From positions 1 to 64,000 of the forward strand of contig JAIOYZ010000011.1 in assembly GCA_021740845.1 (NCBI GenBank): a stretch of 64,000 bases of DNA. Reading direction: 5' to 3'. The position numbers were made by a program, and so were the translations under genes. This stretch comes from Bacteroidia bacterium. GTDB taxonomy: Bacteria > Bacteroidota > Bacteroidia > UKL13-3. The notes beneath the pieces were generated by a model that was not told where the DNA came from, did not search any database, and was given only the letters and a program-made list of their open reading frames with translations. Numbering within the stretch: position 1 is the stretch's first letter; each line of letters begins with the position of its first letter. Shown here one piece after another: positions 4,540 to 61,693 of the stretch.

Positions 4540-4587
4540 GCCTAATTAGCTAAGCCATAGCGGTGAAATGCTTAAGTCTAAAATTTG

Positions 4588-4619: not shown

Positions 4620-4624
4620 CGCTC

Positions 4625-4729: not shown

Positions 4730-4792
4730 GCTCTTAGCTATAGCAGTTGCCCTTTTACTATTTTAGTTTGGCATTTTGAAGTTGCATTTATA

Positions 4793-5647: not shown

Positions 5648-5648
5648 T

Positions 5649-6360
5649 TTATTGGTTATTTATTTCACAAACTAAAGGCAAGTGATCACTATATCTCAGC
5701 CATTTTTCAATTTCTCCTATTTCAAAATTACTCATATTACTGAGAATTTCATTAGAAGCAAAAATGAAATCAATGTGATAAGGTTTTGCTTTATTTCTTT
5801 GTAAATAGAATGTTGGTCTTGTTTCAGTTCCTTGTTTCTCCATATAGAAATGATGGTAAATACTATGAATATTCAATTCTCCTTAATCATTTACAACATT
5901 AGAATGATTCCACTACCTATCAGTTTTATCCCAAATAGAATTGCTATTTAAATCTCCAGCTAAGATTATTTTTTTAAAATTCCCCTTATTGATTTCTAAA
6001 TATTTCCAGAGCTGACCTATAAATCCAAATGTTGGTGATTTATTTTGACTTGTCCAAATGCAGAGTAATTGAAATTTGTTATTTATTAAACAAGGTAATA
6101 AATGTTTTACCTCAGAGCCTTTATAGATATTACTCCAATTGATTAATCGAAGTTTATTTTGGTTTTTGGCAAATACCCCAATTCCTTTATTTTTATTGTC
6201 CCCGTTCCATAAATAGGTACCTGTCCACTCCAAATAATTTTGATGTTCACTGTATTTAGGGTTATAACATTATTGGTTATATAAATGTCTGCATCTAGTT
6301 CTGAAAAATGTTCAAACTTTTTCTAAATGCGCCATTACAATTCCAAGTAACTATTTTCAT
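5649..6360 (-). pseudogene. Decayed endonuclease/exonuclease/phosphatase (EEP) family gene
   Basis: From an ATG at 6360 the peptide begins MKIVTWNCNGAFRKK, the classic N-terminus of EEP-fold nucleases (exonuclease III-like). A base is missing in an A run near 6325, and the frame then reads FEHFSELDADIYI; a second shift lies near 6280, followed by TAA at 6272-6270. The main body has GDLNSNSIWDKTDR, then TAG (5915-5913), WNHSNVVND, TAA (5885-5883), and a C-terminal part ending SDHLPLVCEINNQ with the catalytic SDH motif. Two frameshifts and three stops make an active enzyme very unlikely. The intact GIY-YIG gene follows one base downstream. Confidence 0.85.
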
Positions 6361-29399: not shown

Positions 29400-32300
29400 T
29401 TAATTTAGTTCTTCTTTTCCGTGACACGATTTATATTTTTTGCCACTTCCACAAGGACAAGGATCGTTTCTTCCAATTTTAATTACTCCTTTTACCTGCG
29501 CTGGTTTTTGTACTTCAGATGCACCTTGTGCTGCAACTTGAGTATTCCTTTGCGATTCAGCCAAATCATCTGTTCTAGATGTTTTTAACTTACTAGTATC
29601 AACTCTTTTTGGTTGCTCAGCTTGTTTTACTTCACTTGCGTTTTCAACCGGAATAAAACTCTTAAACAACATGCCTAACAATTCCTTGTTAATGCGCGTA
29701 ACCATTGTCTTAAACAAGTTGAAAGATTCTAATTTGTAAATTAGCAATGGATCCTTTTGTTCAAAAACTGCATTTTGAGAACTTTGTTTTAAATCATCCA
29801 TTTCTCTCAAATGCTCTTTCCAATCATTGTCTATAACGAATAAGGTTGCGAATTTCTCATATGTTTTGGTAATTTCTCTAGCCTGAGTTTCATATGCCTT
29901 TTTAAGATTTACCGGAATTTGCATATTGTGTATTCCATCGCTAAACGGTACGGCAATATTCTCAAACTGTGAACCTCTGCTAGTATAAACATCATCAATA
30001 ACTGGCTTGGCATTGCTAGCAATATCAGCAATTTTCTTAGTATAGTGTGCTTCCAATTCTTCAAATAACATATTGGAAACAGCCTCTGTTTTGCCTCCTA
30101 AAAATTCGTCTTGTGTAATATTTGGTTCGTGTGCAAATACACGCATTACTTCAAACTTAAACTCGGCATAATTCTTTTGATCTTGGTATGTTTCTACCAA
30201 TTCATCGCAAGTATCTGCCAACATATTGCTGATGTCTAAAGCCAATTTATCTCCGTAAAGTGCATTTCTTCTCTTGGTGTAAATTACTTCACGTTGAGAG
30301 TTCATTACATCATCGTATTCTAATAAACGCTTACGAATTCCAAAGTTGTTTTGTTCTACTTTTCTTTGTGCACGTTCAATGTTTTTGGTAATCATAGAAT
30401 GCTCAATATTCTCGCCTTCCTTCATTCCCAAACGGTCCATAATACTGGCAATTCGTTCTGAACCAAATAAGCGCATCAAATCATCTTCCAATGAAACATA
30501 GAATTTAGATGAACCTGGGTCACCTTGCCTACCAGCACGACCTCTTAACTGTCTATCAACCCTTCTACTTTCATGACGTTCGGTACCAATAATAGCCAAA
30601 CCTCCAACTTCTTTAACACCTTCACCAAGCTTGATATCCGTTCCCCTACCAGCCATGTTGGTGGCAATAGTAACGGCACTTTTTTGTCCTGCTTCTGCAA
30701 CTATATCTGCCTCTCTCTGGTTTTGCTTTGCGTTTAAAACATTGTGTTTTATTTTACGCATGGTTAACATTCTACCAAGCAATTCACTCACCTCAACAGA
30801 TGTTGTTCCAACAAGTACTGGTCTTCCAGCATCTGTAAGTTTTACAATTTCATCTATAACCGCGTTGTATTTTTCACGCTTGGTTTTATAAATTACATCT
30901 TCCTCATCTTTTCTAGAAATAGCTCTATTGGTTGGAATTTCTACCACATCCAATTTGTAAATTTCCCAGAATTCACCTGCTTCTGTGGTTGCTGTACCCG
31001 TCATACCACAAAGCTTGTGGTACATTCTAAAGAAGTTTTGCAAAGTAATAGTAGCATAGGTTTGTGTAGCTGCTTCTACTTTTACATTTTCTTTTGCTTC
31101 AATCGCTTGGTGTAAACCATCGCTATAGCGTCGGCCTTCCATCACACGACCAGTTTGTTCGTCTACAATTTTTACCTTGCCATCTACGATGATATATTCT
31201 ACATCGCGTTCAAACATGCAATAGGCTTTCAACAATTGATTGATGGTATGTATACGCTCAGATTTAATTGTGAACTCCAACATCAATTGTTCTTTTCTCT
31301 TCGCCTTTTCATCTTCTGGCATAGTAGATTTTTCAATCTCCGCTATTTCTGAACCAACATCTGGTATAATAAAGAAATTAGTATCCTCGCCCGAAGAAGT
31401 AATTAACTCAACACCCTTTTCTGTTAAATCAACCGAGTTTATTTTTTCGTCAATTACAAAATACAAATCCGCATCCACCTTATGCATTTCCTTTTGTTGG
31501 TCTTGCATGTAAAAGTTTTCGGTTTTGGTGAGTATATTCTTCATACCGGGCTCTCCCAAGAACTTAATCAGCGAACTGTTCTTAGGTAACCCCCTGTAGG
31601 CTTGTAATAATTTAAATCCACCTTCTTTGTCGTTATTGGCCGTAATTGCTTTTTTAGCGTCCAATAAGGCTGTATTTGCATATGCTTTTTGTGCATTTAC
31701 CAATTTCTCAATGCGAGATTTCAATGCATAAAATTGTTGGTCGTCGCCTCTAGGAACCGGACCAGAAATAATCAAGGGGGTTCTAGCATCATCAATCAAA
31801 ACTGAATCCACCTCATCCACCATCGCATAATGGTGTTTGCGTTGAACCAATTCGTCTAAACTATTTGCCATATTATCGCGCAAATAATCAAAACCAAATT
31901 CGTTATTGGTACCATAGGTTATATCAGCTTGGTAAGCTTTTCTTCTTTCAGCAGAATTGGGTTGGTGGTAATCTATACAATCTACCTTCAAACCATGAAA
32001 TTCAAACAATGGTCCGTTCCACTCACAGTCACGACGAGCCAAATAATCATTCACCGTTACTACGTGAACGCCCAATCCCGAAAGTGCATTTAGGTAAGAA
32101 GGTAAAGTAGATACCAAGGTTTTTCCTTCACCTGTAGCCATCTCAGAAATCATTCCTTTATGCAATACCAAACCACCAATTAACTGAACATCGTAATGAA
32201 CCATGTTCCAAGTAATCATCTGTCCTGCGGCTTCCCAAGTGTTCGACCAAATTGCTTTGTCGCCATCAATGCTTACCGGTTTTTTATGACGAGTACTTGC

Positions 32301-32729
32301 ACTTAATTCTTTATCCCAATCGGTTGCAGTAACTACCAATTGCTTATTAGTTGCCAACCTTCTGGCGGTTTCTTTTACCACCGCGAATGCTTCAGGTAAA
32401 ATTTCATTTAATACTTTTTCTAATTCCTCGTCTCTTTTTTTCTTAAGCAGATCTATTTTCTTAAATAAATCATCCTTAACAAATAAATCAATATTGTCAA
32501 CCTGGGTTTCGGTTCTAATACCCTCTATTTCCTCATCTATTTCGGCAAGGAATTCACTAATCTTTGCTTTAAATTCTTGCGTTTTACCACGCAATTCATC
32601 GTCGCTTATAGAACTAAGTTTTGCAAAAGCAGTATTCACTTTTTCAACTACAGGACTAAGTTCTTTTAAATCACGGTCAGATTTACTTCCGAAAATTTTG
32701 GTAATTCCTTTAAAAATGCTTCCAATCAT
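29400..32729 (-). CDS. secA: Preprotein translocase ATPase SecA
   Basis: 1,109 residues, long as usual for Bacteroidota SecA. Walker A is [13 protein letters not shown], Walker B is the [20 protein letters not shown] block, helicase motifs [21 protein letters not shown] and [14 protein letters not shown] are present, and the C-terminal SEC-C zinc motif [14 protein letters not shown] binds SecB or ribosomes. A large acidic/basic insertion lies in the first nucleotide-binding domain (around residues 345-460). The enzyme drives proteins through SecYEG. The 425-base gap upstream is full of dispersed-motif copies. Confidence 0.98.
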
Positions 32730-33154
32730 ATTATTTGTTCTCGCTATATGTGCCTTGCATTAAATGCATAGGGCGGTAAATTTATGCTATTTTTATGGTT
32801 TGGCATAAATTAATCCAACTTGCTTTTTTGTCAATTTGGCATAATAATTTGTTTCTCAATAGCTTTTCGGTTTGAACCAAAAATTAAGACTAAAAAATGA
32901 TTTTTAAACTATTGATTGCCAGCTAAATTAATCTAGGGTATTTTGGTTCAGACCGATATTTTTTGAATTAATATAAATGCAAAATATAGGAAATTGCTCG
33001 TGTTTAATTTTTGCAAAGTGCCTGTTTTAGTTGTAAACCCAAAAAATTGGTTCAAACCGAATATTTATTTTTATTTAGGTTTGAACCTAACAAAAAGTCT
33101 ACTATTGGCTTAATTGGCAGGCATTTTTAAACAATAAATCTTAATAACCCGAAC
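32730..33154. repeat. Gap between secA and ogt with four copies of the dispersed GGTTTGAACC motif
   Basis: Apart from the secA 5' region, the gap has no open frame of note. Copies lie at 32869-32878, 32945-32954 (variant GGTTCAGACC), 33049-33058 and 33078-33087. The last two are exact reverse complements 19 bases apart and could form a 10-bp stem-loop. Long AT-rich runs separate them. They may be part of the secA promoter region, the ogt 3' end or a site of their own. Confidence 0.75.
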
Positions 33155-33736
33155 TTAATTCTTAGAAAACTCCCAATCCAGAAGTGCTTTTTTTCTATCC
33201 AAACCCCATCTGTATCCTCCCAATTTGCCCGAATTTTGAACCACCCTATGGCAAGGTATTAAAATGGCCACAGGATTTTTACCTATTGCCGTTCCAACTG
33301 CTCGAGCGGCATTTTTTTGCCCAATTTGCATTGCCAAATCTCCATAAGTTCGGGTTGAACCAAATGGAATTTGAAGTAATAAATGCCAAATCCTAATTTG
33401 AAACGCACTACCTTTTACATGCATGGGAATTGTGTTTTCAATGTCCAATTTCCCACCTGTTATTTGTAAAGCACTCAAGTGAAAATCGTTAGTAGTTTTA
33501 ATAAATTTCGCCATTGGAAATTCCAGCTCCATTTCTACGATGATAGTTTTTTCATCATCAAATAAGGAAACTTTACAAATTCCAATATTTGTGGAGGCAA
33601 TTAGTAGGTTCCCAAAGCCACTTGGGTAAATATTAAATTCTATTTCATAGGATTCTAAATTTGTATTTTCAGAAAACGGAAATAAGGTGCAGGGTGAATT
33701 TGATTTGCCTTCAAAAATGGAAATTTGCTGAGCCAT
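33155..33736 (-). CDS. ogt: Methylated-DNA-protein cysteine methyltransferase
   Basis: 193 residues. The acceptor motif NPVAILIPCHRVVQNSG has the reactive Cys in PCHRV, preceded by the DNA-binding helix FGSTRTYGDLAMQIG; GGYRWGLDRKKALL closes the domain. It repairs O6-methylguanine by moving the methyl group to itself. The N-terminal 85 residues are weakly conserved, as usual. No Ada regulatory domain is present. Confidence 0.93.
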   Translation of the reverse strand: MAQQISIFEGKSNSPCTLFPFSENTNLESYEIEFNIYPSGFGNLLIASTNIGICKVSLFDDEKTIIVEMELEFPMAKFIKTTNDFHLSALQITGGKLDIENTIPMHVKGSAFQIRIWHLLLQIPFGSTRTYGDLAMQIGQKNAARAVGTAIGKNPVAILIPCHRVVQNSGKLGGYRWGLDRKKALLDWEFSKN

Positions 33737-33749: not shown

Positions 33750-34448
33750 TTAGTTGTTATGGTCTTCATTAGAATCCATTTGGTTTCTAAATCCAAGCAT
33801 TTTTCCTGTTGGTATTCCGCTGCTATGACTCATATAATTTTTCTGTTCCAAAGAAATATAACTCATGGTATCAATAGGAGGGGCCATTAAATCAAAGTTC
33901 ATACAAAAATGCATGGCTTCGCTAATAATATTGTCTGCGCAATCCTCTTTAAATAGTGCCTCTGCAAAATTTGGGTAAAGCATACTCAATGGATGATTTC
34001 CCTCCACAAAAAAATGAGTATCTAAATTCACAAAAATTCTTCCAACTAAATAACCGATATCTCCCTCTCTATTGTATTTAATGGTATCTGAAAGGAAATT
34101 ATAAATATGAATTACACCACAAAACTGCCTTAAATGATTTTCTTTTACATAATTGGTTTGATGTATATAATGGTCTTTCGGAAAATCAAAAATATTGGTG
34201 TGCATCATAAAAACTAGAGTGTCGCCACTAAATTTTAGATGCATTTCGTATTCGGTTACTTCATAGAATTTTATTTCAACATGAGGGTCAATTATTGCAA
34301 CCTCAGCATGCAATTTTTGAGCAATTTGAGAAGCAGATTTTTTAATACTAACTAAAACCTCTTTTGTGCTTCTAAAAGCCTTTTGTTTACATGAAGATTT
34401 TTCAAGAAGTAGGTTTTTTATCTGTTCCAATTTGTTATTAATTCCCAT
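33750..34448 (-). CDS. Hypothetical protein, 232 residues
   Basis: I do not recognise a family. The protein has no signal peptide or membrane helix. It starts with a charged helix, has a middle part rich in His, Phe, Tyr and Ile (HYIHQTNYVKENHLRQFCG, LSDTIKYNREGDIGYLVGRI) and ends in a hydrophilic tail with several His and Asn. The ATG at 34448 is the first available. The gene is 13 bases upstream of ogt on the same strand, so they may be co-transcribed. Codon use looks like its neighbours. Confidence 0.65.
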   Translation of the reverse strand: MGINNKLEQIKNLLLEKSSCKQKAFRSTKEVLVSIKKSASQIAQKLHAEVAIIDPHVEIKFYEVTEYEMHLKFSGDTLVFMMHTNIFDFPKDHYIHQTNYVKENHLRQFCGVIHIYNFLSDTIKYNREGDIGYLVGRIFVNLDTHFFVEGNHPLSMLYPNFAEALFKEDCADNIISEAMHFCMNFDLMAPPIDTMSYISLEQKNYMSHSSGIPTGKMLGFRNQMDSNEDHNN

Positions 34449-36295: not shown

Positions 36296-37456
36296 TCAAA
36301 ATTCTTTGGATATTAATTCGCGCCAATTCATCACCTCTGCTCCATTGCTTCGTTTTTGGGTTTGGTCGCCAGCATACATTAAAACTGATTTTGTTGCGCC
36401 ACTTAATTTACACCAGTAATCCAAGTTTTTAAAAAAATCTTTATTTGTTGTTTTACCTGATTTAATTTCTACGGGAAGCAAAACCTCTCCTTTGTCAATT
36501 ATTAAATCAATTTCATGACCAGTTAAATCTCTCCAGTAAAACAAGTTTATTGGCAAAGCAGCATTGGTCCTTTTTTTTACAAATTCACCAATCACCATTG
36601 TTTCAAATATAGCACCACGTAGTGGGTAGCTGCTCATTTGTTTTGCTGTTTGAATTCCTAATAGAGAGCATACAATTGAAGTATCATAAAAGTACAGCTT
36701 TGGCCTTTTTAGGATGGTTTTATTAAAGTTCTTAAAATGTGGTTTTAATAAATAAATAATAAAACTACTTTCTAAAATCCCAATCCAAGATTGAATGGTT
36801 TTTACATCCACACCTACCTCATTTGAAAGCGAAAGATTATTTAATTCCTGACCCGTTCTTCCCGCCAAAAGCCGAATAAATTTTTCGAATACTACCAAAT
36901 CACTAATATTCTTAATTTGACGTACATCTTTTTCTATATAGGTTCTAATATAATTGTGACACCAATCCATTGCAGGAATTTCTTGGTCGTAAACAGGTGG
37001 GTAGAAACCTGTCAACATTAATTCATCATCTAGTTGAGGTAAGATTTTTGCTCCATTTAACTCTGCCAATGAAAATGGCAAAAGGTTAATATATCCAATT
37101 CTACCTGCAAGAGATTGGGAAATGGATTGTTGCAATAGAAAGTTATTTGAACCAGATAGTATGAAAAGCCCTTTTTCTTTTGAGTTATCTAATATCTCTT
37201 GTAAGTATGAAAATAAGTTTGGTGTACGTTGCACCTCATCCAGAACTGCTCCATTAGGATAGGTCGCTAAAAATCCTCTTGGGTCTTCTAACGCAAAATT
37301 GCGCATATCCAAATTTTCAAGCGAAACGTATGGCTTCATTTTAAAAACTTCTTTAATGAGCGTGGTTTTGCCAGTCTGCCTGGCACCAGTTACCGCCACA
37401 GCCTTGAACTTAGTTGCAAGGTCAATCAGTTTTTTCTTTGCTTCCCTTTGAATCAT
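36296..37456 (-). CDS. P-loop ATPase with DUF4143 domain
   Basis: 386 residues. The N-terminal AAA-like domain has Walker A GARQTGKTTLIKEV near residue 22, Walker B GAVLDEVQR and a sensor-like FILSGSNNFLL. The C-terminal half (LYFYDTSIVCSLLGIQ, NLFYWRDLTGHEIDLIID, PVEIKSGKT) matches DUF4143, with a nuclease-like D-E-IKSGK arrangement. Such genes are common, often in several copies, in Bacteroidota and are of unknown function. It is the only intact gene between repeat B copies. Confidence 0.88.
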   Translation of the reverse strand: MIQREAKKKLIDLATKFKAVAVTGARQTGKTTLIKEVFKMKPYVSLENLDMRNFALEDPRGFLATYPNGAVLDEVQRTPNLFSYLQEILDNSKEKGLFILSGSNNFLLQQSISQSLAGRIGYINLLPFSLAELNGAKILPQLDDELMLTGFYPPVYDQEIPAMDWCHNYIRTYIEKDVRQIKNISDLVVFEKFIRLLAGRTGQELNNLSLSNEVGVDVKTIQSWIGILESSFIIYLLKPHFKNFNKTILKRPKLYFYDTSIVCSLLGIQTAKQMSSYPLRGAIFETMVIGEFVKKRTNAALPINLFYWRDLTGHEIDLIIDKGEVLLPVEIKSGKTTNKDFFKNLDYWCKLSGATKSVLMYAGDQTQKRSNGAEVMNWRELISKEF

Positions 37457-49139: not shown

Positions 49140-51029
49140 ATGTTGGATCAGGTGAGAATATTAGGTAGGCGATTTGGTATTGCCTTATTGGTGGCCACTT
49201 TGTGTAGGTTTATTTTTTATTTTTTTAATAGCTATTACCATCAATTTGGATTTATATCCTTGTTGAAAGCATTTACTTTCGGCATTTTATATGATATCTC
49301 TGCATTGATTTACATGCATGGAATTTTCATTTTTTTACATTTATTACCCCATCCTTGGTTTGTAAAGAAGTGGTTTCAAAAAGCATTGTTAACAATATTC
49401 CTTTTGGTTCAAACCGTATTTGTTTTTTTTAATTTAATGGATACCGGTTATTTCACTTTTGCTGGTAAAAGAAGTGGAATGGAAGTGTTTGGCATGACTA
49501 AAGAAGCAGATGGTTTGGTAGGAAGCTATTTGTATGATTATTGGTATTTAGTTTTGATCCTACTTGTTTTGATTTCTTTAAGTTATTTGTTGTTTACTAA
49601 AACCTTTTCTTTGGTTCAAACCGAAAATTCTAAAAACCTAAATTGGTTTAGTGAAATTGGTTTAAGGTTGGCCATTGCTTGCCTATGTATTGTGGGAGCA
49701 AGAGGAGGTGTAAATCTATTGCCTTTAAATACGTTTGATGCAGCTAGGCAAACACAGGCTGAATTGGTTTCTTTGGTTGTTAATACACCTTTCAATTTAA
49801 TAATTAGCACACAGCAACAAGGCCTAGAAAAGTATGAATTCATGGATGAAATAGAGGCAAAGTCTTGGTTCAATCCGGTGCAACAATGGAAGGCAGATTC
49901 CAATATTTTTAAAGCAAGTATTCCTCCCAATATTGTTCTAATTATTGTAGAAAGTTTAGGAAAAGAGTATATAGGAAATTATAATGGTGGTAGGGGATAC
50001 ACTCCATTTTTAGATAGTTTAATGGGTTATTCTGAGGTGTTTGAGCATGCCTATTCTAACGGGAAAAAATCTATTGAAGGAATTCCTGCCATTCTTTCAT
50101 CGATGCCTACCTTGATGCAAACACCTTATTTAAGTAGTTATTATCAAAGTAATTATTTGGATGGAATTGGAAAATATCTTTCAAGTTCTGGATATGAAAC
50201 AAGCTTTTACCATGGTGGAAAAAATGGTACCATGAGCTTTGATAATTATATTGCTTTGAGTAAAGGTGGAAGCTATTATGGCAAAAATGAATACCCTAAT
50301 CAAGTTGATTTTGACGGACATTGGGGAATTTACGACAAGCCTTATTTGCATTATTTTGCGGAGGAATTGAACAAGAAGAAAACTCGGTTTTTCTCTACCA
50401 TATTTACTTTAAGCTCTCATCATCCTTACCCTTTAACGGAGGAGGAAAGGATTAAATATCCTAAGGGGGCTTTGCCTATTCATGCAAGTATTGGTTATGT
50501 AGACGATGCTTTGAGAGAGTTTTTTGCTTATGCAAAAAATCAAAGTTGGTATTCTAATACTACATTTATTTTCACTGCCGATCACAGTGCAGAAAATGAA
50601 ACACCTTATTATCAAAGTTCTCAAGGGAAGTTTGAAATTCCTTTACTAGTTTTTCGTCCAAGAAATCCTATTGGTTTTAGAAACGAAACAACAGTTTCGC
50701 AACTAGATATTTTGCCTATTGCTTTAGAGGAAGGTGGTTTTCACCAGTCGTATTTTAGCTTTGGAACATATAATTCTTCATGTGCAAAAATGCACTTAGC
50801 TGTGCAATACCACGACAATTATTTTCAAGCAATTAATTGGCCTTATGTATATCAATTTGATGGTAAAAAACCATTTGGATTTTATGATTTAAGGTCGGAT
50901 TCTATGATGAAGAATAACTTGATAAAGCTTGAAGAAACTAAAGAACAAAAAGAAATGGATAGGCAGCTTAAGGCTATTATTCAAACCTATTCTAATAGGG
51001 TTAGAAAGAATCAAACCATTATTCAGTAA
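49140..51029 (+). CDS. LTA synthase/phosphoethanolamine-like sulfatase superfamily membrane protein
   Basis: 629 residues. Five membrane helices fill the first 215 residues, and a large extracytoplasmic sulfatase-fold domain follows: VLIIVESLGKEYIGNY, AYSNGKKSIEGIPAILSSMP with the likely nucleophile Ser (Thr in most LTA synthases), FTLSSHHPYPL and TFIFTADHSAENE. In Gram-negative bacteria this family moves phosphoglycerol or similar head groups onto envelope glycans. Two dispersed-motif copies lie near 49406 and 49613 (read as LVQTV and LVQTE). It converges with the next gene with a gap of four bases. Confidence 0.85.
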   Translation: MLDQVRILGRRFGIALLVATLCRFIFYFFNSYYHQFGFISLLKAFTFGILYDISALIYMHGIFIFLHLLPHPWFVKKWFQKALLTIFLLVQTVFVFFNLMDTGYFTFAGKRSGMEVFGMTKEADGLVGSYLYDYWYLVLILLVLISLSYLLFTKTFSLVQTENSKNLNWFSEIGLRLAIACLCIVGARGGVNLLPLNTFDAARQTQAELVSLVVNTPFNLIISTQQQGLEKYEFMDEIEAKSWFNPVQQWKADSNIFKASIPPNIVLIIVESLGKEYIGNYNGGRGYTPFLDSLMGYSEVFEHAYSNGKKSIEGIPAILSSMPTLMQTPYLSSYYQSNYLDGIGKYLSSSGYETSFYHGGKNGTMSFDNYIALSKGGSYYGKNEYPNQVDFDGHWGIYDKPYLHYFAEELNKKKTRFFSTIFTLSSHHPYPLTEEERIKYPKGALPIHASIGYVDDALREFFAYAKNQSWYSNTTFIFTADHSAENETPYYQSSQGKFEIPLLVFRPRNPIGFRNETTVSQLDILPIALEEGGFHQSYFSFGTYNSSCAKMHLAVQYHDNYFQAINWPYVYQFDGKKPFGFYDLRSDSMMKNNLIKLEETKEQKEMDRQLKAIIQTYSNRVRKNQTIIQ

Positions 51030-51033
51030 AGTT

Positions 51034-51384
51034 TTAGAGACCTAATTCCAATCGTGTTTTTTTGGGAAGTGAGGCTTTTACCAATTGGTAGGAATGATCT
51101 ACCAAATTTAGAATTTCTTTATCGTTTAAGTCTTGGTTAAAATGAACTGTATTCCAATGTATTTTAGACATGTGATAACCTGGTTGAACGGCCTCATAAG
51201 TTTGTCTTAATTCCACAGCTTTTTCTGGGTCGCATTTAAGATTGCATTGATTTGGGTTCTCTAAACCAATTAGACAAAACATTTTGCCTGCAACCTTAAA
51301 TACAAGTGTGTTTTCGTCAAATGGAAAACACTCTTCTACTGCGATTTTAGCAAGACAAAATTCTCTTAGTAGTTCAACATGCAT
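51034..51384 (-). CDS. MmcQ/YjbR family protein
   Basis: 116 residues. KIAVEECFPFDENTLVFKVAGKMF, FCLIG, LKCDPEKAVELRQTY and MSKIHWNTVHF are typical of the MmcQ/YjbR fold (CyaY-like). Its function is unknown; a DNA-binding role has been suggested for the family. It starts right where the upstream barrel protein gene ends. Confidence 0.9.
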   Translation of the reverse strand: MHVELLREFCLAKIAVEECFPFDENTLVFKVAGKMFCLIGLENPNQCNLKCDPEKAVELRQTYEAVQPGYHMSKIHWNTVHFNQDLNDKEILNLVDHSYQLVKASLPKKTRLELGL

Positions 51385-52014
51385 TTACAAAACTCCAAAA
51401 AGTTTATAACCAATTTGGAAGGTAAGCATGGTGTTTTGAGCAGATGGGCCACTACCATCATAAAGAAAGGGCGTTCCCATATTACCTGCGTTGAAATCGT
51501 ATTTAACATCAAAACGTAATTTCATTAAATCAAGGCCTAATCCCAATTGAATTCCTGTGGTTTTTTTTGTTAAATCACTACTTGCAAATTTAGGTGCATT
51601 AGGAATATCTGTTTTTTGCTTGGTCATTATTTGAAAATTAGGACCACCATAAATTCTAAATGTTTTAAGCATTTTGAAACCTACCAAAACAGGTATTTCA
51701 AGATAATTTGCTGTATTACTAAAAATATATTTATCGGTTGTAGTTTCTAAAGTAACATTTGAACCTCTTTTATTATACATTAATTCTGGCTGAACATACA
51801 ATCCAATAACCCATAATTTTAACCTTCCATAGGCTCCAAAATTGTAGGTTGAAATGTTTTCATTTGTTGGGCTGTATTTTACAGTGTTTGCTGTAAAATT
51901 GCTATAGGTAAAGCCACCTTTGCTCAAACCAGCTTTAAACCCAAATTCTAATTCTTGAGAAATGGCAGTAAACGCTATTAAAAAACAAGTGAACGAGAGT
52001 ATAATTTTTTTCAT
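51385..52014 (-). CDS. Outer membrane beta-barrel protein (PorT-like)
   Basis: 209 residues with a signal peptide (MKKIILSFTCFLIAFTAISQ) and an eight-stranded-type barrel: FGFKAGLSKGGF, YVQPELMYNKRG, YLEIPVLVGFKMLKTFRIYGGPNFQ and a C-terminal FQIGYKLFGVL. This is the outer-membrane beta-barrel family (Pfam group OMP_b-brl_2) widespread in Bacteroidota. The ligand is unknown. Confidence 0.85.
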   Translation of the reverse strand: MKKIILSFTCFLIAFTAISQELEFGFKAGLSKGGFTYSNFTANTVKYSPTNENISTYNFGAYGRLKLWVIGLYVQPELMYNKRGSNVTLETTTDKYIFSNTANYLEIPVLVGFKMLKTFRIYGGPNFQIMTKQKTDIPNAPKFASSDLTKKTTGIQLGLGLDLMKLRFDVKYDFNAGNMGTPFLYDGSGPSAQNTMLTFQIGYKLFGVL

Positions 52015-52062
52015 GACGATTTTGTGAAAATCAAAACTAAATAAAAAAGTAATACAAAAAAA

Positions 52063-52085
52063 AATCCGAAGAGTTTCTTCGGATT
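52063..52085 (-). terminator. Terminator of the M49 peptidase gene
   Basis: AATCCGAAG and CTTCGGATT form a perfect 9-bp stem with loop AGTTT, inside A and T runs on both sides. Confidence 0.92.
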
Positions 52086-52102
52086 TTTTTTTAAATATTC
52101 AA

Positions 52103-54166
52103 TTAGTTTTTATTTGGTAAGAAAGAATAATTTTTTCCTCTTTCTAATTGGTCGGCTATCCAATTATTAGGATATTCAACTTTTACATCAATTAATTTTT
52201 CTCCTTCGTAAACAGGAATCAATTTAGGTTGAACAAAACCTTTATAAGCAGCTACATTTAGTTTCTCAAAACGAGCTTTAACTTCTTTTAATAATTCTTG
52301 GTCAACTTTAACACCATAAGTTTCAACTAATGCTTCTGCTGCTTTGGTATCTCCTTCAGATTTTATACGTTGAATTTCTTTCAATAGTTGTCCAAACAAT
52401 TCTCTTAATTTATCGTAATCGTTAATTTTAACATAGGTTTTTCCATCCTTTTTAACCATTTCAATTACGTTATCTGCTTTGCCTTTAGCAAAAGCCCAAG
52501 ATGCATTTAATTGTCTGTTACGCATGTGTGCTTCTTCTAAGTTTTCGCCAATTTGAAGACGAGTTAATTGAGTAATTAAACCATTACGGATATAACCATC
52601 ATATTCAGATTTACCAACTTCAAGGCTTGGCATAACACCCATTTCAACCAATTTAGGATCATATACATAATATAAAGCAACTAAATCGGCACGAGCTTCT
52701 TCTAATGTACTAGCATAGTTTTTTAAAGTTTGGTCTGGATCGCCAACACCTTTGTTAATTTGACCAGAAGCATGTCCAATTACTTCGTGCATGTCGGTAT
52801 GTAAATCGCTGGCAAGTGCACCAAATTCTGCATTTCTAGCAATTTCTTCTTCTGTTAATGCAAACTCTTTCATCATTGGACTTTTTGCTCCAACAATATT
52901 GTAAGAATGTACAATATTTCCTAAAGAAACAGATTTAGAACCATGTTGTTGTCTGATCCAATTTGCATTTGGAAGGTTAATACCAATTGGAGTTGATGGT
53001 GAACTAGCACCTGCTTCTTGAATTACTGTTATAACTTTAGCGGTTATACCTTTTACACTTTTCTTTTTGTGCTCGTCTGCAATAGGTGAGTGGTCTTCAA
53101 ACCATTGTGCTTCCTTTGCAATCATTGCAATACGCTTGGTTGCTTCCATATCTTTTAAAGAAACAACAGATTCAAATGAAGCTCTTTTTCCGATGGCATC
53201 ATCATATACTTCAATAAATCCGTTTACTACATCCAATCTGCTTTCGGTATCGTTTACCCAAGCAATATTATACTCGTCCCATTTCTTTAAATCTCCTGTT
53301 TTATAGTATTCAATTAAAAGCTCAAGCGCTTTTTTCTGCTTGTCGTTTTCTGCAACAGTAACAGCTTTCTCTAACCAAAATACAATTTTCTCAATTGCAC
53401 CTGTATACATTCCACCAACTTTATAAACCTTTTCGGTAACAACTCCATTTTCTTTAACCATTTTAGAGTTTAGGCCCCAAGAAATTGGCTGCGTATCATT
53501 AGAATCCATTCTTGAATTATAATACGCTTCCACTTCATTTTGGCTTACACCTTCATAAAAATTATTGGCTGAACCAACAACGTTATCAATGCCAGATGCC
53601 AGATTAACCAATTTTGCATCCACCTTAGGATCAAAAATAATTGGTTTCATTTCTGTTAAATATGCATCTACAGTTGCTCCATCTAAAGGTAATGTTGCAG
53701 GATCACAAGCTTTAACCAAGGTTTGGAAATACTCGAATCCACAAGCAGGAACAAATTTTATGTTTGAATAATGGTGGTGAATACCATTAGAGAAAAATAC
53801 ACGCTTAGCATAAGTTTCAAAATTCTTCCAATCTTCTGTTGTTTTGTCGCCAGAATATTGGTTCAAAACAGCTTCTAAAGTTCTGCGAATACGTAAATTG
53901 TGTTTGTATTTTTGATCGTAAAATATGTCTCTTCCACAATTGGCAGCTTCATATAAATAGTATGCTAATTCCTTTTGTTTTGGCGTTAATTCGGCAAATC
54001 CAGGAATTTCAAAACGCAGGACTTGTAAGTCTGCAAATTCATCGCAGTTTACTTCAAAATTGCTTTCAGTTGCATCGCTTTTAGCGGTTTTGTTATCGTT
54101 ACTGCATGCCGTGAAAGTTAAGGCTGCACCGATAGCTCCGTACATCATAGTTTTTTTGAGATTCAT
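52103..54166 (-). CDS. Dipeptidyl-peptidase III-like (M49) lipoprotein
   Basis: 687 residues. A lipoprotein-type signal (IGAALTFTACSNDNK) precedes the catalytic region. The M49 zinc motif HEVIGH (in DLHTDMHEVIGHASGQ, near residue 450) and the second motif EEARAD (about residue 480) supply the zinc ligands. The family cuts dipeptides from the N-terminus of short peptides; here it is probably attached in the envelope. The enzyme is near the normal size of the family. Confidence 0.9.
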   Translation of the reverse strand: MNLKKTMMYGAIGAALTFTACSNDNKTAKSDATESNFEVNCDEFADLQVLRFEIPGFAELTPKQKELAYYLYEAANCGRDIFYDQKYKHNLRIRRTLEAVLNQYSGDKTTEDWKNFETYAKRVFFSNGIHHHYSNIKFVPACGFEYFQTLVKACDPATLPLDGATVDAYLTEMKPIIFDPKVDAKLVNLASGIDNVVGSANNFYEGVSQNEVEAYYNSRMDSNDTQPISWGLNSKMVKENGVVTEKVYKVGGMYTGAIEKIVFWLEKAVTVAENDKQKKALELLIEYYKTGDLKKWDEYNIAWVNDTESRLDVVNGFIEVYDDAIGKRASFESVVSLKDMEATKRIAMIAKEAQWFEDHSPIADEHKKKSVKGITAKVITVIQEAGASSPSTPIGINLPNANWIRQQHGSKSVSLGNIVHSYNIVGAKSPMMKEFALTEEEIARNAEFGALASDLHTDMHEVIGHASGQINKGVGDPDQTLKNYASTLEEARADLVALYYVYDPKLVEMGVMPSLEVGKSEYDGYIRNGLITQLTRLQIGENLEEAHMRNRQLNASWAFAKGKADNVIEMVKKDGKTYVKINDYDKLRELFGQLLKEIQRIKSEGDTKAAEALVETYGVKVDQELLKEVKARFEKLNVAAYKGFVQPKLIPVYEGEKLIDVKVEYPNNWIADQLERGKNYSFLPNKN

Positions 54167-54202
54167 TTCAATTGAGTTAATTTGGGCAAATATTAAGCAT
54201 TA

Positions 54203-55048
54203 ATGTTGAAAGGGCAAACCATTCGTCAAATTCTGGATCAAAAGTACCAGCAGTATAACCAAAAAGAGTTTATTCTGCTTGACCCAATTTCAATTCCTCG
54301 AAGTTTTACCAAAAAACAGGATATTGAGATTTCAGGACTTTTTGCCGCTCTTTTTGCTTGGGGTCAACGACCAACTATTATTAATAAATGCAAAGATTTG
54401 TTAGGGCGAATGGATAATGCACCTTATGATTTTATTGTTGGTTATGAGGACAAGGATTTGCAAAATTTATTAGGTTTTAAACACAGAACATTTAATGATA
54501 CCGACCTGCTTTATTTTGTACATTTTCTTCGCACACATTACTCAAATTTCGATACTTTAGAAACTGCCTTTACTAGAAACAACAAGTTAAAAAGAGAGAA
54601 TGTAGAATTAGCTTTGATCCAATTTAGAGAGCAGTTTCAAGGTGGCTATGAGGTTTCAACTAATAATTCTCAGAAAACTAATTTTGGTTCGAACCAAACC
54701 TTAAATGAAAATAGACTTTTTGCCCCAAATAGAACAATGAAGCATGTTTCTTCACCCATTCAAAATTCTGCTTGCAAGCGATTGAATATGTATTTGAGAT
54801 GGATGGTAAGAAAGGATAATTTTGGAGTTGATTTTGGACTTTGGGAAGGTATTCATCCCAACCAGCTGATAATTCCTCTGGATTTGCATGTTGGCAGAGT
54901 GGCTAGAAAATTGGGACTTTTAGAGAGAGAGCAAGACGACTGGAAAGCAGCAGTTTTGCTTACAGATAACTTAAAAAGGTTTGACCCAAAAGACCCTGTA
55001 AAATATGATTTTGCTTTATTTGGGATGGGAATAGAAAAGTATTTTTAA
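54203..55048 (+). CDS. TIGR02757 family protein
   Basis: 281 residues. IPRSFTKKQDIEISGLFAALFAWGQR, CKRLNMYLRWMVRKDNFGVDFGLW and LDLHVGRVARKLGLLEREQ are the typical blocks (cited in part) of this family of unknown function, which has a helix-hairpin-helix DNA glycosylase-like look. It carries the perfect palindromic variant GGTTCGAACC (54686-54695). It diverges from the M49 peptidase gene and converges on the next small gene (nine-base gap). Confidence 0.85.
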   Translation: MLKGQTIRQILDQKYQQYNQKEFILLDPISIPRSFTKKQDIEISGLFAALFAWGQRPTIINKCKDLLGRMDNAPYDFIVGYEDKDLQNLLGFKHRTFNDTDLLYFVHFLRTHYSNFDTLETAFTRNNKLKRENVELALIQFREQFQGGYEVSTNNSQKTNFGSNQTLNENRLFAPNRTMKHVSSPIQNSACKRLNMYLRWMVRKDNFGVDFGLWEGIHPNQLIIPLDLHVGRVARKLGLLEREQDDWKAAVLLTDNLKRFDPKDPVKYDFALFGMGIEKYF

Positions 55049-55057
55049 ATAGATTTA

Positions 55058-55303
55058 TTACAGCATCCGGTATAAATCTCTCACCTTATTTACAACATGT
55101 AAAAATAATAAAGCCGGCCAAACCAATGCGCTTTGCGAGGTATAATTTATGAGAATAATGCTCACCAAAATTCCAATATTAAAAGTGGCAACCACAATAT
55201 ATATTAATTGAAACCTAGGATTATTAGCGTAAGCAAACGAAAGAGCGGCAAAAACTAATAAAAGTAATACCGAAATGATGGAAACTATGTATGCAATGTT
55301 CAT
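55058..55303 (-). CDS. Small membrane protein, 81 residues
   Basis: Two or three predicted helices: AYIVSIISVLLLLVFAALSFAYA and IYIVVATFNIGILVSIILIN (cited in part), then a short helix before a charged end. I do not recognise the family. Its ATG lies in the same 18-base palindrome as the ATG of the divergent M61 peptidase gene. Confidence 0.6.
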   Translation of the reverse strand: MNIAYIVSIISVLLLLVFAALSFAYANNPRFQLIYIVVATFNIGILVSIILINYTSQSALVWPALLFLHVVNKVRDLYRML

Positions 55304-55318
55304 ATTTGTACAAATATG
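55301..55318. promoter_or_regulatory. Perfect palindrome holding two divergent start codons and a -7 element
   Basis: CATATTTGTACAAATATG is its own reverse complement; its two ends are the ATG codons of the divergent genes. On each strand it gives CATATTTG, one mismatch from TAnnTTTG, and on the minus strand a TTTG lies exactly 19 bases further upstream, giving a complete promoter. Transcription would start close to the ATG, which suggests leaderless messages. Confidence 0.6.
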
Positions 55319-56782
55319 TATTACAAAATTAGCATTTCAAACCCCGAGGATCATTTTGTTAAAATAATAGGTACAATTGCTGTTGTGCCTAATGAACCTC
55401 TTCAACTTCAATTGCCTGCTTGGCGTCCTGGAAGATATGAGTTGGCTAATTATGCCAAGAATATTAGAAATTTTGTGGTGGAGGATATTAGTGGAAAGTC
55501 AATTCCATTTAAGAAAATTAGCAAAGATTGCTGGGAAATTGAATCTGTTGATAGTAGTAAAATACGCTTTTCTTATGAATATTATGCCAATCAACCAGAT
55601 GCAGGAGCGAGTTATGTAAAGGACGATTTATTGTACATAAATCCTGTAAATTGTTTTATGTATCAAGTTGGTAAGGAAAATTCTTCGTTTGAAATTGAAT
55701 TGGATGTTCCCGATAATTGGGATATAGCTTGTCAATTGGTTCAAAAAGAAAAAACTCTTTTTGCTCCAAATTTTGATACCTTGGCGGATAGCCCATTTTT
55801 CGTGGGTCCAGATTTGAAACATTATTCATTTGAAGAGGAAGGTGCAAATGTCCATTTTTGGTTTGCAGGTGGCGATTGCAATGATCCCCAAAAATTAATT
55901 TTAGATACTAGAGCTTACCTTAAACTTCAGGTGAAAATATTTAGAGAATTGCCCCTCAAGGATTTTCATTTCTTGTATTTATTATTGCCCGATAAATTTA
56001 GACATGGCGTAGAGCACTGCGATTCTACAGTTATTGCAATGGGTCCAGCAAGTGAGTTTTCTAATCCAGATTTTTACAACGACTTTTTAGCCATTAGCTC
56101 CCACGAGTTATTTCATTTGTGGAATGTGAAAAGAATTCGTCCTGTGGAAATGTTACCATATAATTTTACAAAGGAGAATTACTCTCAATTGGGCTATGTT
56201 TATGAAGGAGTAACTACTTATTATGGAGATTTGATTTTGTATAGGTCTGGTGTTTGGGATTTTGCCCAATATGTTAAGAGTTTAGAAAGTGATTTTGATA
56301 AGCATTTTAATAATGAGGGCAGGTTTAATTATTCGGTAGCAGAATCTAGTTATGATACTTGGTTGGATGGATATGTACCTGGCGTTAAGGGAAGAAAAGT
56401 TTCCATTTACATGGAGGGTTTAATTGCTGCGTGGGTTGCAGATATCCTTATTTTGGAAAAAACTCATGGCGCTGCTAGATTTGACCAGGTAATGAGGATG
56501 TTATATGAGAAAAGCTATCTTCAAAACAAGGGTTACACAAAAGAAATGTATTTGGGTATTTTGGAAAAAGTTTCGGGATTGTCATTTTCTCAATATTTTG
56601 AAGACCTAATTGATGGGAAAGGGAAATGGGATAATTATATTTATAAGTGTTTGAATACTATTGGTTTAAATATGGTTATCACCAAAGATGAATCAGGTGT
56701 AAATAGATGCAAAATTTATAAAATTGAAAACCCTACAAATGAACAATTGGAATTCTTTGAAATTTGGTCTAAAAGTTTATAA
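55316..56782 (+). CDS. M61 family metallopeptidase
   Basis: 488 residues. The N-terminal beta-rich part (about residues 1-160) is followed by the thermolysin-like domain with ISSHELFHLWNVKRIRP (HExxH) and YEGVTTYYGDLILYRSG, with Glu as the third ligand. The PDZ domain often found at the C-terminus of M61 enzymes is absent. No signal peptide is seen, so the enzyme may be cytoplasmic. It starts in the palindrome described above. Confidence 0.9.
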   Translation: MYYKISISNPEDHFVKIIGTIAVVPNEPLQLQLPAWRPGRYELANYAKNIRNFVVEDISGKSIPFKKISKDCWEIESVDSSKIRFSYEYYANQPDAGASYVKDDLLYINPVNCFMYQVGKENSSFEIELDVPDNWDIACQLVQKEKTLFAPNFDTLADSPFFVGPDLKHYSFEEEGANVHFWFAGGDCNDPQKLILDTRAYLKLQVKIFRELPLKDFHFLYLLLPDKFRHGVEHCDSTVIAMGPASEFSNPDFYNDFLAISSHELFHLWNVKRIRPVEMLPYNFTKENYSQLGYVYEGVTTYYGDLILYRSGVWDFAQYVKSLESDFDKHFNNEGRFNYSVAESSYDTWLDGYVPGVKGRKVSIYMEGLIAAWVADILILEKTHGAARFDQVMRMLYEKSYLQNKGYTKEMYLGILEKVSGLSFSQYFEDLIDGKGKWDNYIYKCLNTIGLNMVITKDESGVNRCKIYKIENPTNEQLEFFEIWSKSL

Positions 56783-56824
56783 ATTGCAGGACTCAACCAC
56801 TTAAAACTAATCAGGATCTGACTT

Positions 56825-57535
56825 ATGCAAAAAATTTACCTAGAATGTAAAAATTGTGATGCCAAGGCAGTTTCATTCTTATCCTATTGCGACGAAGAAG
56901 AATTTGATTTAGTAAGCAATGCTAAATCTTGTAGCCATTATAAAAAGGGTCAATCTATATTTTACGAAGACAATATTCCTTTGGGAATTTATTGTTTAAG
57001 CAAAGGTGCAATCAAACTCACAAGGTCGAACAAAGATGGTAAAGAACAAATTATCAGATTTGCCAGAGAAGGTGAGTTTTTAGGTTATAGAGCTTTGATA
57101 GCAGATGAACCATTAGTGGCAACTGCAACTTGCATTGAAGATACAATTTGCTGTTTTATTCCTAAAAATGTTTTCATGGATTTATTGGATAAGAACAGTC
57201 AAATTAACAAGCATATGCTTAAATCTCTTTGCCATGATTTGGGTATAGCTGATGAAAGAATTCAAAGTTTGGCTCAAAAAAGTGTAAGAGAGCGTTTGGC
57301 AGAAACATTGTTGTTTTTACAAAAAACCTTTCAAGACGATGCCAAAGTGGATGATAACTTAATCTCGGTTACTTTGCCTCGTGAAGATATTGCCAATATA
57401 GTTGGTACTGCTACAGAAACAGTTATTCGTTTATTATCTGAATTTAAATCGGATAAACTGATTGATATGGAAGGTAAGAAAATTCGCATTTTGAATAAGG
57501 TAGCTCTCGAAAGGATTTCACACGCTTCTGTTTAG
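56825..57535 (+). CDS. Crp/Fnr family transcriptional regulator, probably an oxygen sensor
   Basis: 236 residues. The cyclic-nucleotide-binding-like barrel spans about residues 40-150 (GQSIFYEDNIPLGIYCLSKG, FLGYRALI), and the winged helix-turn-helix is near the C-terminus (PREDIANIVGTATETVIRLLSE). The N-terminal part has Cys 8, 11, 22 and 36, resembling the iron-sulphur Cys of FNR, although the spacing differs. It lies upstream of the copper ATPase and cbb3 oxidase genes, so control of microaerobic respiration is likely. The start ATG 56825 is 42 bases past the M61 stop. Confidence 0.85.
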   Translation: MQKIYLECKNCDAKAVSFLSYCDEEEFDLVSNAKSCSHYKKGQSIFYEDNIPLGIYCLSKGAIKLTRSNKDGKEQIIRFAREGEFLGYRALIADEPLVATATCIEDTICCFIPKNVFMDLLDKNSQINKHMLKSLCHDLGIADERIQSLAQKSVRERLAETLLFLQKTFQDDAKVDDNLISVTLPREDIANIVGTATETVIRLLSEFKSDKLIDMEGKKIRILNKVALERISHASV

Positions 57536-57541
57536 CAAGTT

Positions 57542-58318
57542 TTGGAATATCAAACTGGAATAGTTCTTTCTGGTGGTGGTGCTAGAGGCTTTGCTCATGC
57601 TGGTGCACTAAAAGCTTTAGAAGAATTTCAGATTTTTCCTCAAATTATTTCTGGTGTAAGTGCTGGCGCTATTGCTGGAGCCTTGTATGCTGATGGTTTT
57701 TCACCAGACGAAATGATGGAGATTTTTCTTCATTTGGATTTATATAAATTATTGAAATTTAAAGGCTTCAAATTGGGTTTATTGAATCCAGATGGGCTAA
57801 AACAAAATCTTCAAAAAGTTTTAAGAGCAAACGATTTCTCAGAATTAAAAAAGAAATTAATTGTGGGTTGTACTAATTTAGAGTTGGCTCAAACCGATTA
57901 TTTTAGCACTGGAAAATTGCTTGATCCTGTTATTGCCTCGGCAGCTTTTCCATTTCTGATTAGACCACAAGTTGTTAACGGAATAAAATATGTGGATGGG
58001 GGATTAATGAATAATTTACCTGTTCAACCTTTACTAGGAAAATGTCAAACTATTATTGGGGTTCATGTAAATCCAGTTGTTTCTAAATCAGGCATGTTAG
58101 GCCCAAGATCTTATTTTGATAGAATCATACATATGGGATTACGAGCCAACATGCTTACCAATATACCAAAATGTGATTTGTTTATTGAACCACCCGAATT
58201 GGCAAGCTATCATTTGCTAAAGGTTTCTTCAGCTAAAGAAATTTTTGAAAAGGGCTATCAGTATACATTTAAATTGCTTGCTAACCACCCCGATTTATCT
58301 ACCATTAAAACTAGGTGA
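57542..58318 (+). CDS. Patatin-like phospholipase
   Basis: 258 residues. The oxyanion motif LSGGGARGFAHAGALKAL, the nucleophile elbow ISGVSAGAIAGALYA (GxSxG), and the DGG box VDGGLMNNLPV make a complete Ser-Asp dyad. It hydrolyses acyl lipids, probably at the inner face of the membrane. It starts at TTG 57542, six bases after the Crp/Fnr gene, suggesting coupling. Confidence 0.88.
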   Translation: MEYQTGIVLSGGGARGFAHAGALKALEEFQIFPQIISGVSAGAIAGALYADGFSPDEMMEIFLHLDLYKLLKFKGFKLGLLNPDGLKQNLQKVLRANDFSELKKKLIVGCTNLELAQTDYFSTGKLLDPVIASAAFPFLIRPQVVNGIKYVDGGLMNNLPVQPLLGKCQTIIGVHVNPVVSKSGMLGPRSYFDRIIHMGLRANMLTNIPKCDLFIEPPELASYHLLKVSSAKEIFEKGYQYTFKLLANHPDLSTIKTR

Positions 58319-58341
58319 ACCCTTGATATTCTTAATAATAT

Positions 58342-58353
58342 GACTTAAATCAG
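58342..58353. promoter_or_regulatory. Putative Crp/Fnr-family binding site upstream of the stress protein
   Basis: TGACTTAAATCA has a near-palindromic TGA-N6-TCA form, as Crp/Fnr proteins recognise. A -7 element TAGATTTG lies at 58398-58405; the centre of the site is about 64 bases upstream of the predicted transcription start (near 58412). The site is also part of a hairpin between 58341 and 58376 that is followed by a T run and may terminate the patatin transcript. Confidence 0.5.
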
Positions 58354-58397
58354 TACACTGTTTGAGTTAGGTCATGTTTTTTTTTGATAACACTAAA

Positions 58398-58405
58398 TAG
58401 ATTTG
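58398..58405 (+). promoter_or_regulatory. -7 element of the stress protein gene
   Basis: TAGATTTG matches TAnnTTTG exactly. It has no good -33 partner, as expected if an activator is needed. It places the transcription start after the first possible TTG start at 58403 and so favours the ATG at 58439. Confidence 0.5.
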
Positions 58406-58438
58406 AATCTTGAAATTATATCTATTGTGGTAAGAAAC

Positions 58439-59263
58439 ATGTTAATATTAATGGATGGAACAGCTGATGCTGAACGTCTGTTGGATTGCTCGATGAAGCT
58501 GTTCAATAATCAACAAGATCATTTTAATGGAGCTTTTGTTGAGGGTATCAGTGCTGGAAATTTGGACGAAGTTTTTGAAACTCGTGAGCACTTAACTAGC
58601 CAATACACTCGTTCCGAAATCATTGAGAAAATTCTCCATACCGACCTAAACAATAGCAATGAATTTATAGCACGATTTGTTAAAAAATGCGATGAGTTAT
58701 GCCTGAGAACTAAAGTGTTTATTGGGGCTGAAGAGATGAATACGGATTTGGCAAACGAAAGTATGTTCAATGATTTATTCTTAATTGGTAAAGACATTTT
58801 TAAAAAACCAAATGTCACTAAAAACTCTTTTGATGCGATTGAATCTTTAATGCGCAATACAAAATGCCCTATTTTACTTTTGTCTTGCGAGCAACTATCT
58901 TTTCAAAATATCGTGCTAATTTACGATGGAAGTAAACGTTCATTTGATGCCATAAAACTATTTATGTATTTAATGGGCGATCAAATGGAAAATAATAATC
59001 TAATCTTAAATGTTGTAGTTACTGAGAATAGCGGAATAAATGAAAAAGGAGTGATTGATTATTTGAAAAATTACAAACAACATTTTTCTATTAATAGGGT
59101 TTATCCAGAGAATTATTATACAGAATTATTGGATTTATTGGTGAATTTAAAATCCTTCTTATTGGTTACTGGTGTTAACCGTAACGACATTATGGAAGAT
59201 ATGATATTTAACAAGGATCATAGTTTTTTCATGCATGGTCAACGCTCAGTTTTCTTAGGTTAA
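58439..59263 (+). CDS. Universal stress protein-like
   Basis: 274 residues with two USP-like halves. The first begins MLILMDGTADAERLLDCSMKLF and the second has NIVLIYDGSKRSFDAIKLFMYL. The ATP-binding G-2x-G-9x-GS is not clear, so it may not bind ATP. Such proteins near the cbb3 oxidase and CcoI genes are often part of the Fnr-controlled micro-oxic response. It ends two bases before the copper ATPase gene. Confidence 0.7.
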   Translation: MLILMDGTADAERLLDCSMKLFNNQQDHFNGAFVEGISAGNLDEVFETREHLTSQYTRSEIIEKILHTDLNNSNEFIARFVKKCDELCLRTKVFIGAEEMNTDLANESMFNDLFLIGKDIFKKPNVTKNSFDAIESLMRNTKCPILLLSCEQLSFQNIVLIYDGSKRSFDAIKLFMYLMGDQMENNNLILNVVVTENSGINEKGVIDYLKNYKQHFSINRVYPENYYTELLDLLVNLKSFLLVTGVNRNDIMEDMIFNKDHSFFMHGQRSVFLG

Positions 59264-59264
59264 A

Positions 59265-61688: not shown

Positions 61689-61693
61689 TTGAA

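Follow-up and report, generated by a model that had tools for sequence, protein, structure and literature searches.

A genus-restricted ten-base motif in Bacteroidia genomes as a candidate tag for self-recognition in DNA exchange

The gap between secA and ogt in this Bacteroidia genome carries four copies of one ten-base word, two of which form an inverted pair, and the locus raises the question of whether such crowding has a local cause or belongs to a wider property of the genome. Both genes are read from the minus strand, with ogt preceding secA across a gap of 425 bp (Table 1). The SecA matches NF009536, a form typical of the phylum Bacteroidota, and together with the best named Ogt match, from Maribacter, it points to the class Bacteroidia. 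All four copies were confirmed where the preliminary description had placed them: three are exact matches to the core GGTTTGAACC, and the fourth differs by one base, which turns it into the CTGAACCAA form that several sister species favour. The two copies forming the pair are, as claimed, perfect reverse complements with 10-bp arms, separated by a spacer of 19 bases (33059-33077). The window, namely the whole stretch of 64,000 nucleotides that was analysed, holds 21 exact core copies. It also bears an AAA_14/DUF4143 ATPase gene at 36296-37456 on the minus strand, and such genes are often accessory or mobile.

Table 1. Genes, motif sites and candidate structure around the secA–ogt gap (positions in the window)
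Feature	Position	Strand	Remarks
secA	29400..32729	-	1109 aa; NF009536, 1787.7 bits
secA leader	32730..32821	-	motif-free; alignable with relatives; 84% identity to G003 over 92 bp
motif copy TTCGGTTTGAACCAAAA (core GGTTTGAACC, full consensus)	32869..32878	+	exact match
motif variant ATCGGTCTGAACCAAAA (T>C; plus-strand letters GGTTCAGACC, minus strand GGTCTGAACC)	32945..32954	-	one substitution
head-to-head stem-loop, then AATTTTTT on the minus strand	33041..33087	-	starts no ORF; lies 67 nt beyond the stop codon of ogt; terminator candidate for ogt
motif copy TTCGGTTTGAACCAATT, inverted-pair arm (plus-strand letters GGTTCAAACC)	33049..33058	-	exact reverse complement
motif copy TTAGGTTTGAACCTAAC (GGTTTGAACC), second arm	33078..33087	+	exact match; without the usual upstream C
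ogt / methylated-DNA-cysteine methyltransferase (MGMT)	33155..33736	-	193 aa; TIGR00589, 109.8 bits
motif-like site CGGGTTGAACCAA	33352..33361	+	within ogt
232-aa protein gene	33750..34448	-	without Pfam or NCBIfam match

In total, 1318 exact copies of GGTTTGAACC (672 forward and 646 reverse) were counted in the 4,088,294 bases and 66 contigs of the genome, a density of 0.32 per kb, against 33 (18 + 15) for the reversed word used as control. Flanks and neighbourhood were analysed in a sample of 1,102,453 bases, 27% of the genome, which contains 349 exact core copies. The three bases upstream of these are mostly T, T and C (71%, 74% and 68%) and the three downstream are A, A and A (75%, 99% and 70%), resulting in the consensus 5'-TTCGGTTTGAACCAAA-3', which is asymmetric, with C before the core and nA after it. 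A weak A/T preference lies beside the core, and a weak A/T preference beside the core is also a trait of the USS of Pasteurellaceae. The 13-mer CGGTTTGAACCAA was observed 195 times in the 1.10-Mb sample, while 0.11 occurrences are expected from trinucleotides. The conserved unit comprises about 16 bases and no longer repeat surrounds the core.

The positions of the motif differ in the changes that they tolerate. Most tolerated single changes fall in three places. In the left half, C>T was found 50 times, G>T 25 and 13 times, T>G 11 times and T>C 10 times; the second A in GAACC has 17 A>T and five A>G changes; and the first A that follows CC may be any base, with 7 to 21 occurrences of each single change. 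Every change of the T, G or A of TGA, of both C and of the last A occurs 0 or 1 times. The last 14 kb of the window (49623-64000) contain no exact core copy and bear the palindromic GGTTCGAACC at 54686; a stretch of this length is within chance, as gaps of up to 18 kb are found in longer contigs. Viral contig stretches with the 16-mer numbered 21, with one copy each, compared with a rough chance estimate of about 20. The T-arm of tRNAs has the sequence GGTTCRAACC, and a resemblance to it was rejected as the source of the motif, since none of the 349 core copies falls in the seven tRNAs of the sample and the window has no tRNA.

The abundance of the motif follows the boundary of the genus. The pattern GGTYYGAACC, for which the palindromic word was counted on both strands, was present in all 19 genomes of the genus with 123 to 1602 matches, 5.1- to 30-fold over control, whereas 45 genomes from 13 other genera of the family had 4 to 64 matches, at most 2.6-fold over control (21 vs 8 in G060). 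An enrichment of at least 5-fold over control was thus seen in 19 of 19 genus genomes and in none of the 45 others. The exact core occurs in 46 to 839 copies in the 18 same-genus genomes besides this one and in 0 to 22 copies in 41 genomes from elsewhere in the family and class. Its counts are only mildly above control in G013 (60 vs 24) and G011 (71 vs 21), because these species prefer the palindromic variant. The density of the motif is modest in G015, G017 and G018. Within the family, the motif is the signature of a single genus.

Samples from sister genera (12 genomes, 20 kb each and 11 kb for G030) contained TGAACCAA 0 to 6 times each, a sample size too small to exclude other uptake words there. 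The sample of G029 included TTGACCCCCT six times at a high ratio, and in the 20 kb of G022 other words reached 11 to 13 copies, TATCGCCAAT and GATATAGATG being found eleven times each; tandem or gene-family repeats are a possible origin in both cases.

Within the genus, the species prefer different variants, namely GGTTTGAACC, CTGAACCAA, whose left half is less strict, and GGTTCGAACC, which is a perfect palindrome. Ten relatives were sampled over 20 to 100 kb. The bases preferred before GAACCAA were TT in G005, G008 and G009, and CC/TC in G013, together with GGTTCGAACC; CT was more frequent than TT in G002 and G004 and weakly so in G015, the two were about equal in G018, and no clear preference was seen in G003. 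Genome-wide, CTGAACCAA was counted 80 to 999 times per genus genome, with 999 copies in G001 and 866 in G007; as two genomes from outside the genus have as many as 96, the 9-mer alone is no discriminator of the genus. G011, G013 and G016, in which GGTTCGAACC is the dominant form, have 186 to 300 sites of it; G002 has 207 and G003 has 164, and no more than 6 to 9 were counted in G015, G017 and G018.

The genomes were sorted by a rule that compares words of unequal length: class P when palindrome sites outnumber GGTTTGAACC, otherwise class C when CTGAACCAA outnumbers GGTTTGAACC, and class T in the remaining cases. Class P comprises G011, G013 and G016, class C comprises G001-G004, G006, G007, G014, G015 and G018, and class T comprises G000 (the genome studied here), G005, G008-G010, G012 and G017. 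Class C is mixed, and the excess of GGTTTGAACC over GGTC[TC]GAACC in eight of its nine genomes indicates that its CTGAACCAA copies are mostly without the GGT left half. On a SecA tree of 18 genomes, from which G017 was left out as it has a SecA fragment only, the classes required four changes compared with a shuffled mean of 7.7, none of 200 shuffles being as low, a clustering to which near-identical relatives add. P is a supported group on this tree; C and T are not single groups. Across the variants the right half is largely kept, giving GAACCnA as the common half-site.

Location was assessed on mechanically called ORFs, 885 in number with a minimum of 80 codons, by which 90.2% of the sample is coding. 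Intergenic positions were found for 133 of the 349 copies, against 9.8% expected, and the other 216 are not intergenic. The 583 gaps contain 126 copies. Convergent gaps have the highest density (1.71 per kb), followed by co-directional gaps (1.42) and, well below both, divergent gaps (0.63; p 0.0007). Of the 64 copies in co-directional gaps at least 100 bp long, 46 lie in the half nearer the upstream gene. The motif thus favours gene ends and is sparse in divergent gaps.

This distribution bears on two explanations that involve the whole genome. An orphan DNA methyltransferase coupled to repair or conversion could create and maintain such a word, as proposed for cyanobacterial HIP1, and the near-palindromic core, the dominance of a perfect palindrome in class P and the replacement of HIPs by alternate words in related species (PMC4390886) would all suit this explanation. 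The main consensus is nevertheless asymmetric, neither intergenic enrichment nor sparseness in divergent gaps is mentioned for HIP in the consulted portion of PMC4390886, and the alternate HIPs treated there are different palindromes, whereas the variants of the present motif largely keep their right half, which makes a HIP-like origin unlikely.

A recombination signal of the Chi type, or a site that organises the chromosome and is bound by a cytoplasmic protein, would also suit a short, very abundant and conserved word, and the variants could track a co-evolving protein. Chi and KOPS are strand-biased. The orientation of the present motif is balanced genome-wide (672/646) and does not follow GC skew (rho -0.06, p 0.66 in 50 windows, on contigs instead of a closed genome), and Chi and KOPS themselves were rejected for this absence of orientation or skew bias. 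The strong intergenic preference and the random spacing (CV 0.99 and 1.05 for the two longest contigs) also argue against sites of this kind, which we consider a rather improbable explanation.

The pair in the secA–ogt gap had been likened to the inverted uptake sequences near gene ends in Neisseria, with the proposal to check whether such pairs recur at gene ends elsewhere in the genome. Among pairs 10-40 bp apart in the sample, the tail-to-tail type was found six times against 1.58 expected (4 of 500 shuffles as high) and the head-to-head type three times against 1.57 (108 of 500 shuffles as high). As the tail-to-tail excess is one of 21 distance/orientation cells tested, it is modest evidence when taken alone. 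Four of these six pairs are wholly outside ORFs and two are partly or wholly inside. Within 70 bp, there are six tail-to-tail gap pairs, five of which start 8-15 nt past an ORF end, and two head-to-head ones. About 1.0 Mb from seven relatives yielded one inverted pair within 40 bp, about chance level, so the inverted-pair result rests on one genome. The reported pair is head-to-head, a type that is not enriched, and differs from the tail-to-tail pairs seen after stop codons.

The reported pair could still act on its own. The RNA fold of 33035-33100 has an energy of -16.5 kcal/mol (z -3.49) on the minus strand and of -17.3 (z -4.45) on the plus strand, so that the fold is strand-unspecific and the T tract alone points to the minus strand. 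A simple terminator scan of 32700-33200 reported no terminator, with a loop limit of 8 bases compared with the 19 bases between the stem arms. Judged by its arms and T tract, the head-to-head pair may plausibly serve as the terminator of ogt.

Local regulation of secA or ogt by the four copies would draw on this stable hairpin with its T tract after ogt and on the presence of three exact copies and a variant within 425 bp. At the sampled intergenic density of 1.26 per kb, a single gap of 425 bp would hold at least three copies with a probability of 0.017, and among the 583 gaps sampled there are three with at least three copies, the secA–ogt gap included, where 4.4 are expected; copies per gap are Poisson-like. 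The gap is hence not special, its copy number being as chance predicts at intergenic density, and the idea that the crowding signals a function or an insertion hot spot found no support in these counts.

The comparison of the gap among relatives, proposed in the preliminary description, yielded no counterpart. DNA matching the 232-aa gene lies closer to secA in 11 of 17 relatives than in this genome, in which ogt intervenes. The Ogt relatives present in the genus sit on contigs other than that of secA; near-full-length ones were found only in G003 (46% and 38%) and G015 (36%), a partial one in G018 (47%), short matches only in 14 other genus genomes and no match in G017, and the best named match (47%) is from an uncultured Maribacter. 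A motif-like site lies 132-193 bp before secA in eight relatives, which would favour a local role, and eight of the 17 have no such site in the 1500 bp before secA, which speaks against it; the readable stretch was 914 bp in G007 and 740 bp in G016, both of which have a site. The sites comprise GGTTCGAACC at -190 in G011, G013 and G016, at -193 in G007 and at -419 in G005, GGTCTGAACC at -152 in G009 and G012, and GGGTTGAACC at -132 in G008 and G010, where GGTTTGAACC also occurs at about -420. The contrary evidence named beforehand, a gap in close relatives that lacks the motif and is otherwise unchanged, was encountered only in part: eight relatives have no motif-like site upstream of secA, but their region also differs in lacking ogt. 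With copy number explained by chance, regulation of these two genes by the four copies is very unlikely.

Conservation and turnover were followed in one species pair, G008 and G010, over 146,966 aligned columns in 14 pieces with 93.2% identity. All 40 copies of G008 are identical in G010, and 40 of the 46 copies of G010 are identical in G008, the misses consisting of five single substitutions and one indel. Shuffled words of the same composition are identical in 45% of 93 sites, and of the blocks flanking motif sites, 16 to 25 out of 39-40, or 19 to 28 out of 45-46, are identical. The motif copies are kept better than both, demonstrating that the word itself is conserved and not its surroundings, and turnover is mainly by point mutation. 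A mobile repeat of the REP type spread by a RAYT transposase, or an insertion hot spot, is thereby rendered extremely improbable: four Y1_Tnp (RAYT-like) matches over the cut-off exist in the genome (contigs C54 and C32) and hairpin pairs do occur, yet 216 of the 349 copies are not intergenic, the unit of about 16 bases is part of no longer repeat, and the preponderance of single-base substitutions (five of six differences) largely refutes such spread. The hot spot suggested for the gap was rejected on this turnover together with the Poisson-like copies per gap.

ComEC (220.3 bits) and DprA (237.1 bits) are both present in the genome; they are widespread and therefore not diagnostic. A search of the 19 genus genomes, among them five with a completeness of only 68-88%, for PF00437 (PilB/PilT-type ATPase) gave no convincing member: nine had no match and ten had one weak match each, at most 26.3 bits, the strongest (G003) exceeding the Pfam cut-off of 24.9 and covering 54 of 370 positions. 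Of 16 genomes from other families of the class, five (G037, G040, G041, G043 and G047) carry a full T2SSE/PilB-type ATPase of 425-444 bits; none was found in six genomes of other genera of the family, and no PF07963 (N_methyl pilin) signal was detected in this genome. There is consequently no evident place for a ComP-type receptor, and the receptor, if the motif is an uptake tag, would have to differ from the pilus-based type of DUS and USS. Riemerella anatipestifer is transformed without detected pilus homologs in a process requiring ComEC, DprA, ComF and RecA, together with four functionally uncharacterised proteins (PMC8459023), Riemerella columbina prefers its own DNA and Flavobacterium johnsoniae has weak pilus-type homologs of about 24% identity (PMC7965970). 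The Riemerella uptake genes include DUF5689/DUF5017, carboxypeptidase-regulatory-like and helix-hairpin-helix types. With transformation in the absence of detected pilus homologs documented in Bacteroidota, a pilus-independent receptor is conceivable here.

The genome-wide over-representation, the asymmetric consensus, the restriction to one genus within the family, the variants clustered on the tree, the conservation with single-base turnover, the location bias and the presence of ComEC and DprA agree with the analogy to Neisseria uptake sequences drawn in the preliminary description. By this analogy, the motif is probably a genus-specific self-recognition tag for DNA exchange comparable to DUS and USS. 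A putative surface or periplasmic DNA receptor would favour motif-bearing fragments, which would be imported by ComEC, recombined with the help of DprA and RecA and so become over-represented among transformants. Copies arising by point mutation would accumulate and be protected, mostly at the least harmful places, namely gene ends, where pairs in opposite orientation after a stop codon may double as transcription terminators, as the reported head-to-head pair may do for ogt.

Uptake words have been described in two proteobacterial families, both with pilus-based uptake (PMC12616744, PMC13020248), and the consulted portion of a 2026 terminator survey names them for Neisseriaceae and Pasteurellaceae only (PMC13020248). 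Among the matches listed in searches of the uptake-sequence and motif-word literature, which cover few subscription journals, there was no report of such a motif in Bacteroidota. We lean slightly towards a third independent origin of uptake-sequence self-recognition, in a genus of Bacteroidia that would lack type IV pili, have variants preferred by species and based on GAACCnA, and use a putative pilus-independent receptor. A motif with the same genomic signature, confined to one genus of Bacteroidia in which no pilus motor is detectable, would point to a renewed origin of self-recognition with different machinery, and the motif would offer a handle on the uptake apparatus of Bacteroidota. The receptor would be expected in the genus, absent or different in the 13 sister genera, and co-varying with the preferred variant.

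Among known systems, the DUS of Neisseriaceae share with the motif an abundant word of 10-16 bases, variants congruent with phylogeny and a permissive and intergenic location; inverted pairs of DUS are associated with terminators (PMC3630211). The tail-to-tail pairs of this genome may be so too. The invariant core of DUS is CTG plus A (PMC3630211), compared with TGA.CC.A in this genome and, on the whole, GAACC.A in the genus. The present motif differs in its phylum, in its sequence, and in belonging to a genus in which no convincing pilus ATPase was found and to a genome in which no N_methyl pilin was found. The density of DUS is higher, with 2426 to 5918 per genome in the examples given (PMC3630211) against 1318 here, and the motif variants are more mixed within species than the dialects of Neisseriaceae, so the term dialect applies more loosely to them.

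The USS of Pasteurellaceae likewise have a core of about 10 bases, hundreds of copies in genes and gaps and family dialects, and they are used in terminators (PMC13020248); their sequence is unrelated and their uptake is pilus-based with a predicted minor-pilin receptor (PMC12616744). HIP1 and the alternate HIPs of cyanobacteria resemble the motif as very abundant short near-palindromes with replacement words in relatives (PMC4390886); the motif is set apart by its asymmetric main consensus and its preference for gene ends. In Riemerella columbina, the over-represented k-mers are A/T-rich with at most one G or C, their over-representation is modest and the consulted portion of PMC7965970 defines no uptake motif; the likeness lies in the phylum Bacteroidota and the preference for own DNA (PMC7965970), joined by the transformation of Riemerella without detected pilus homologs (PMC8459023).
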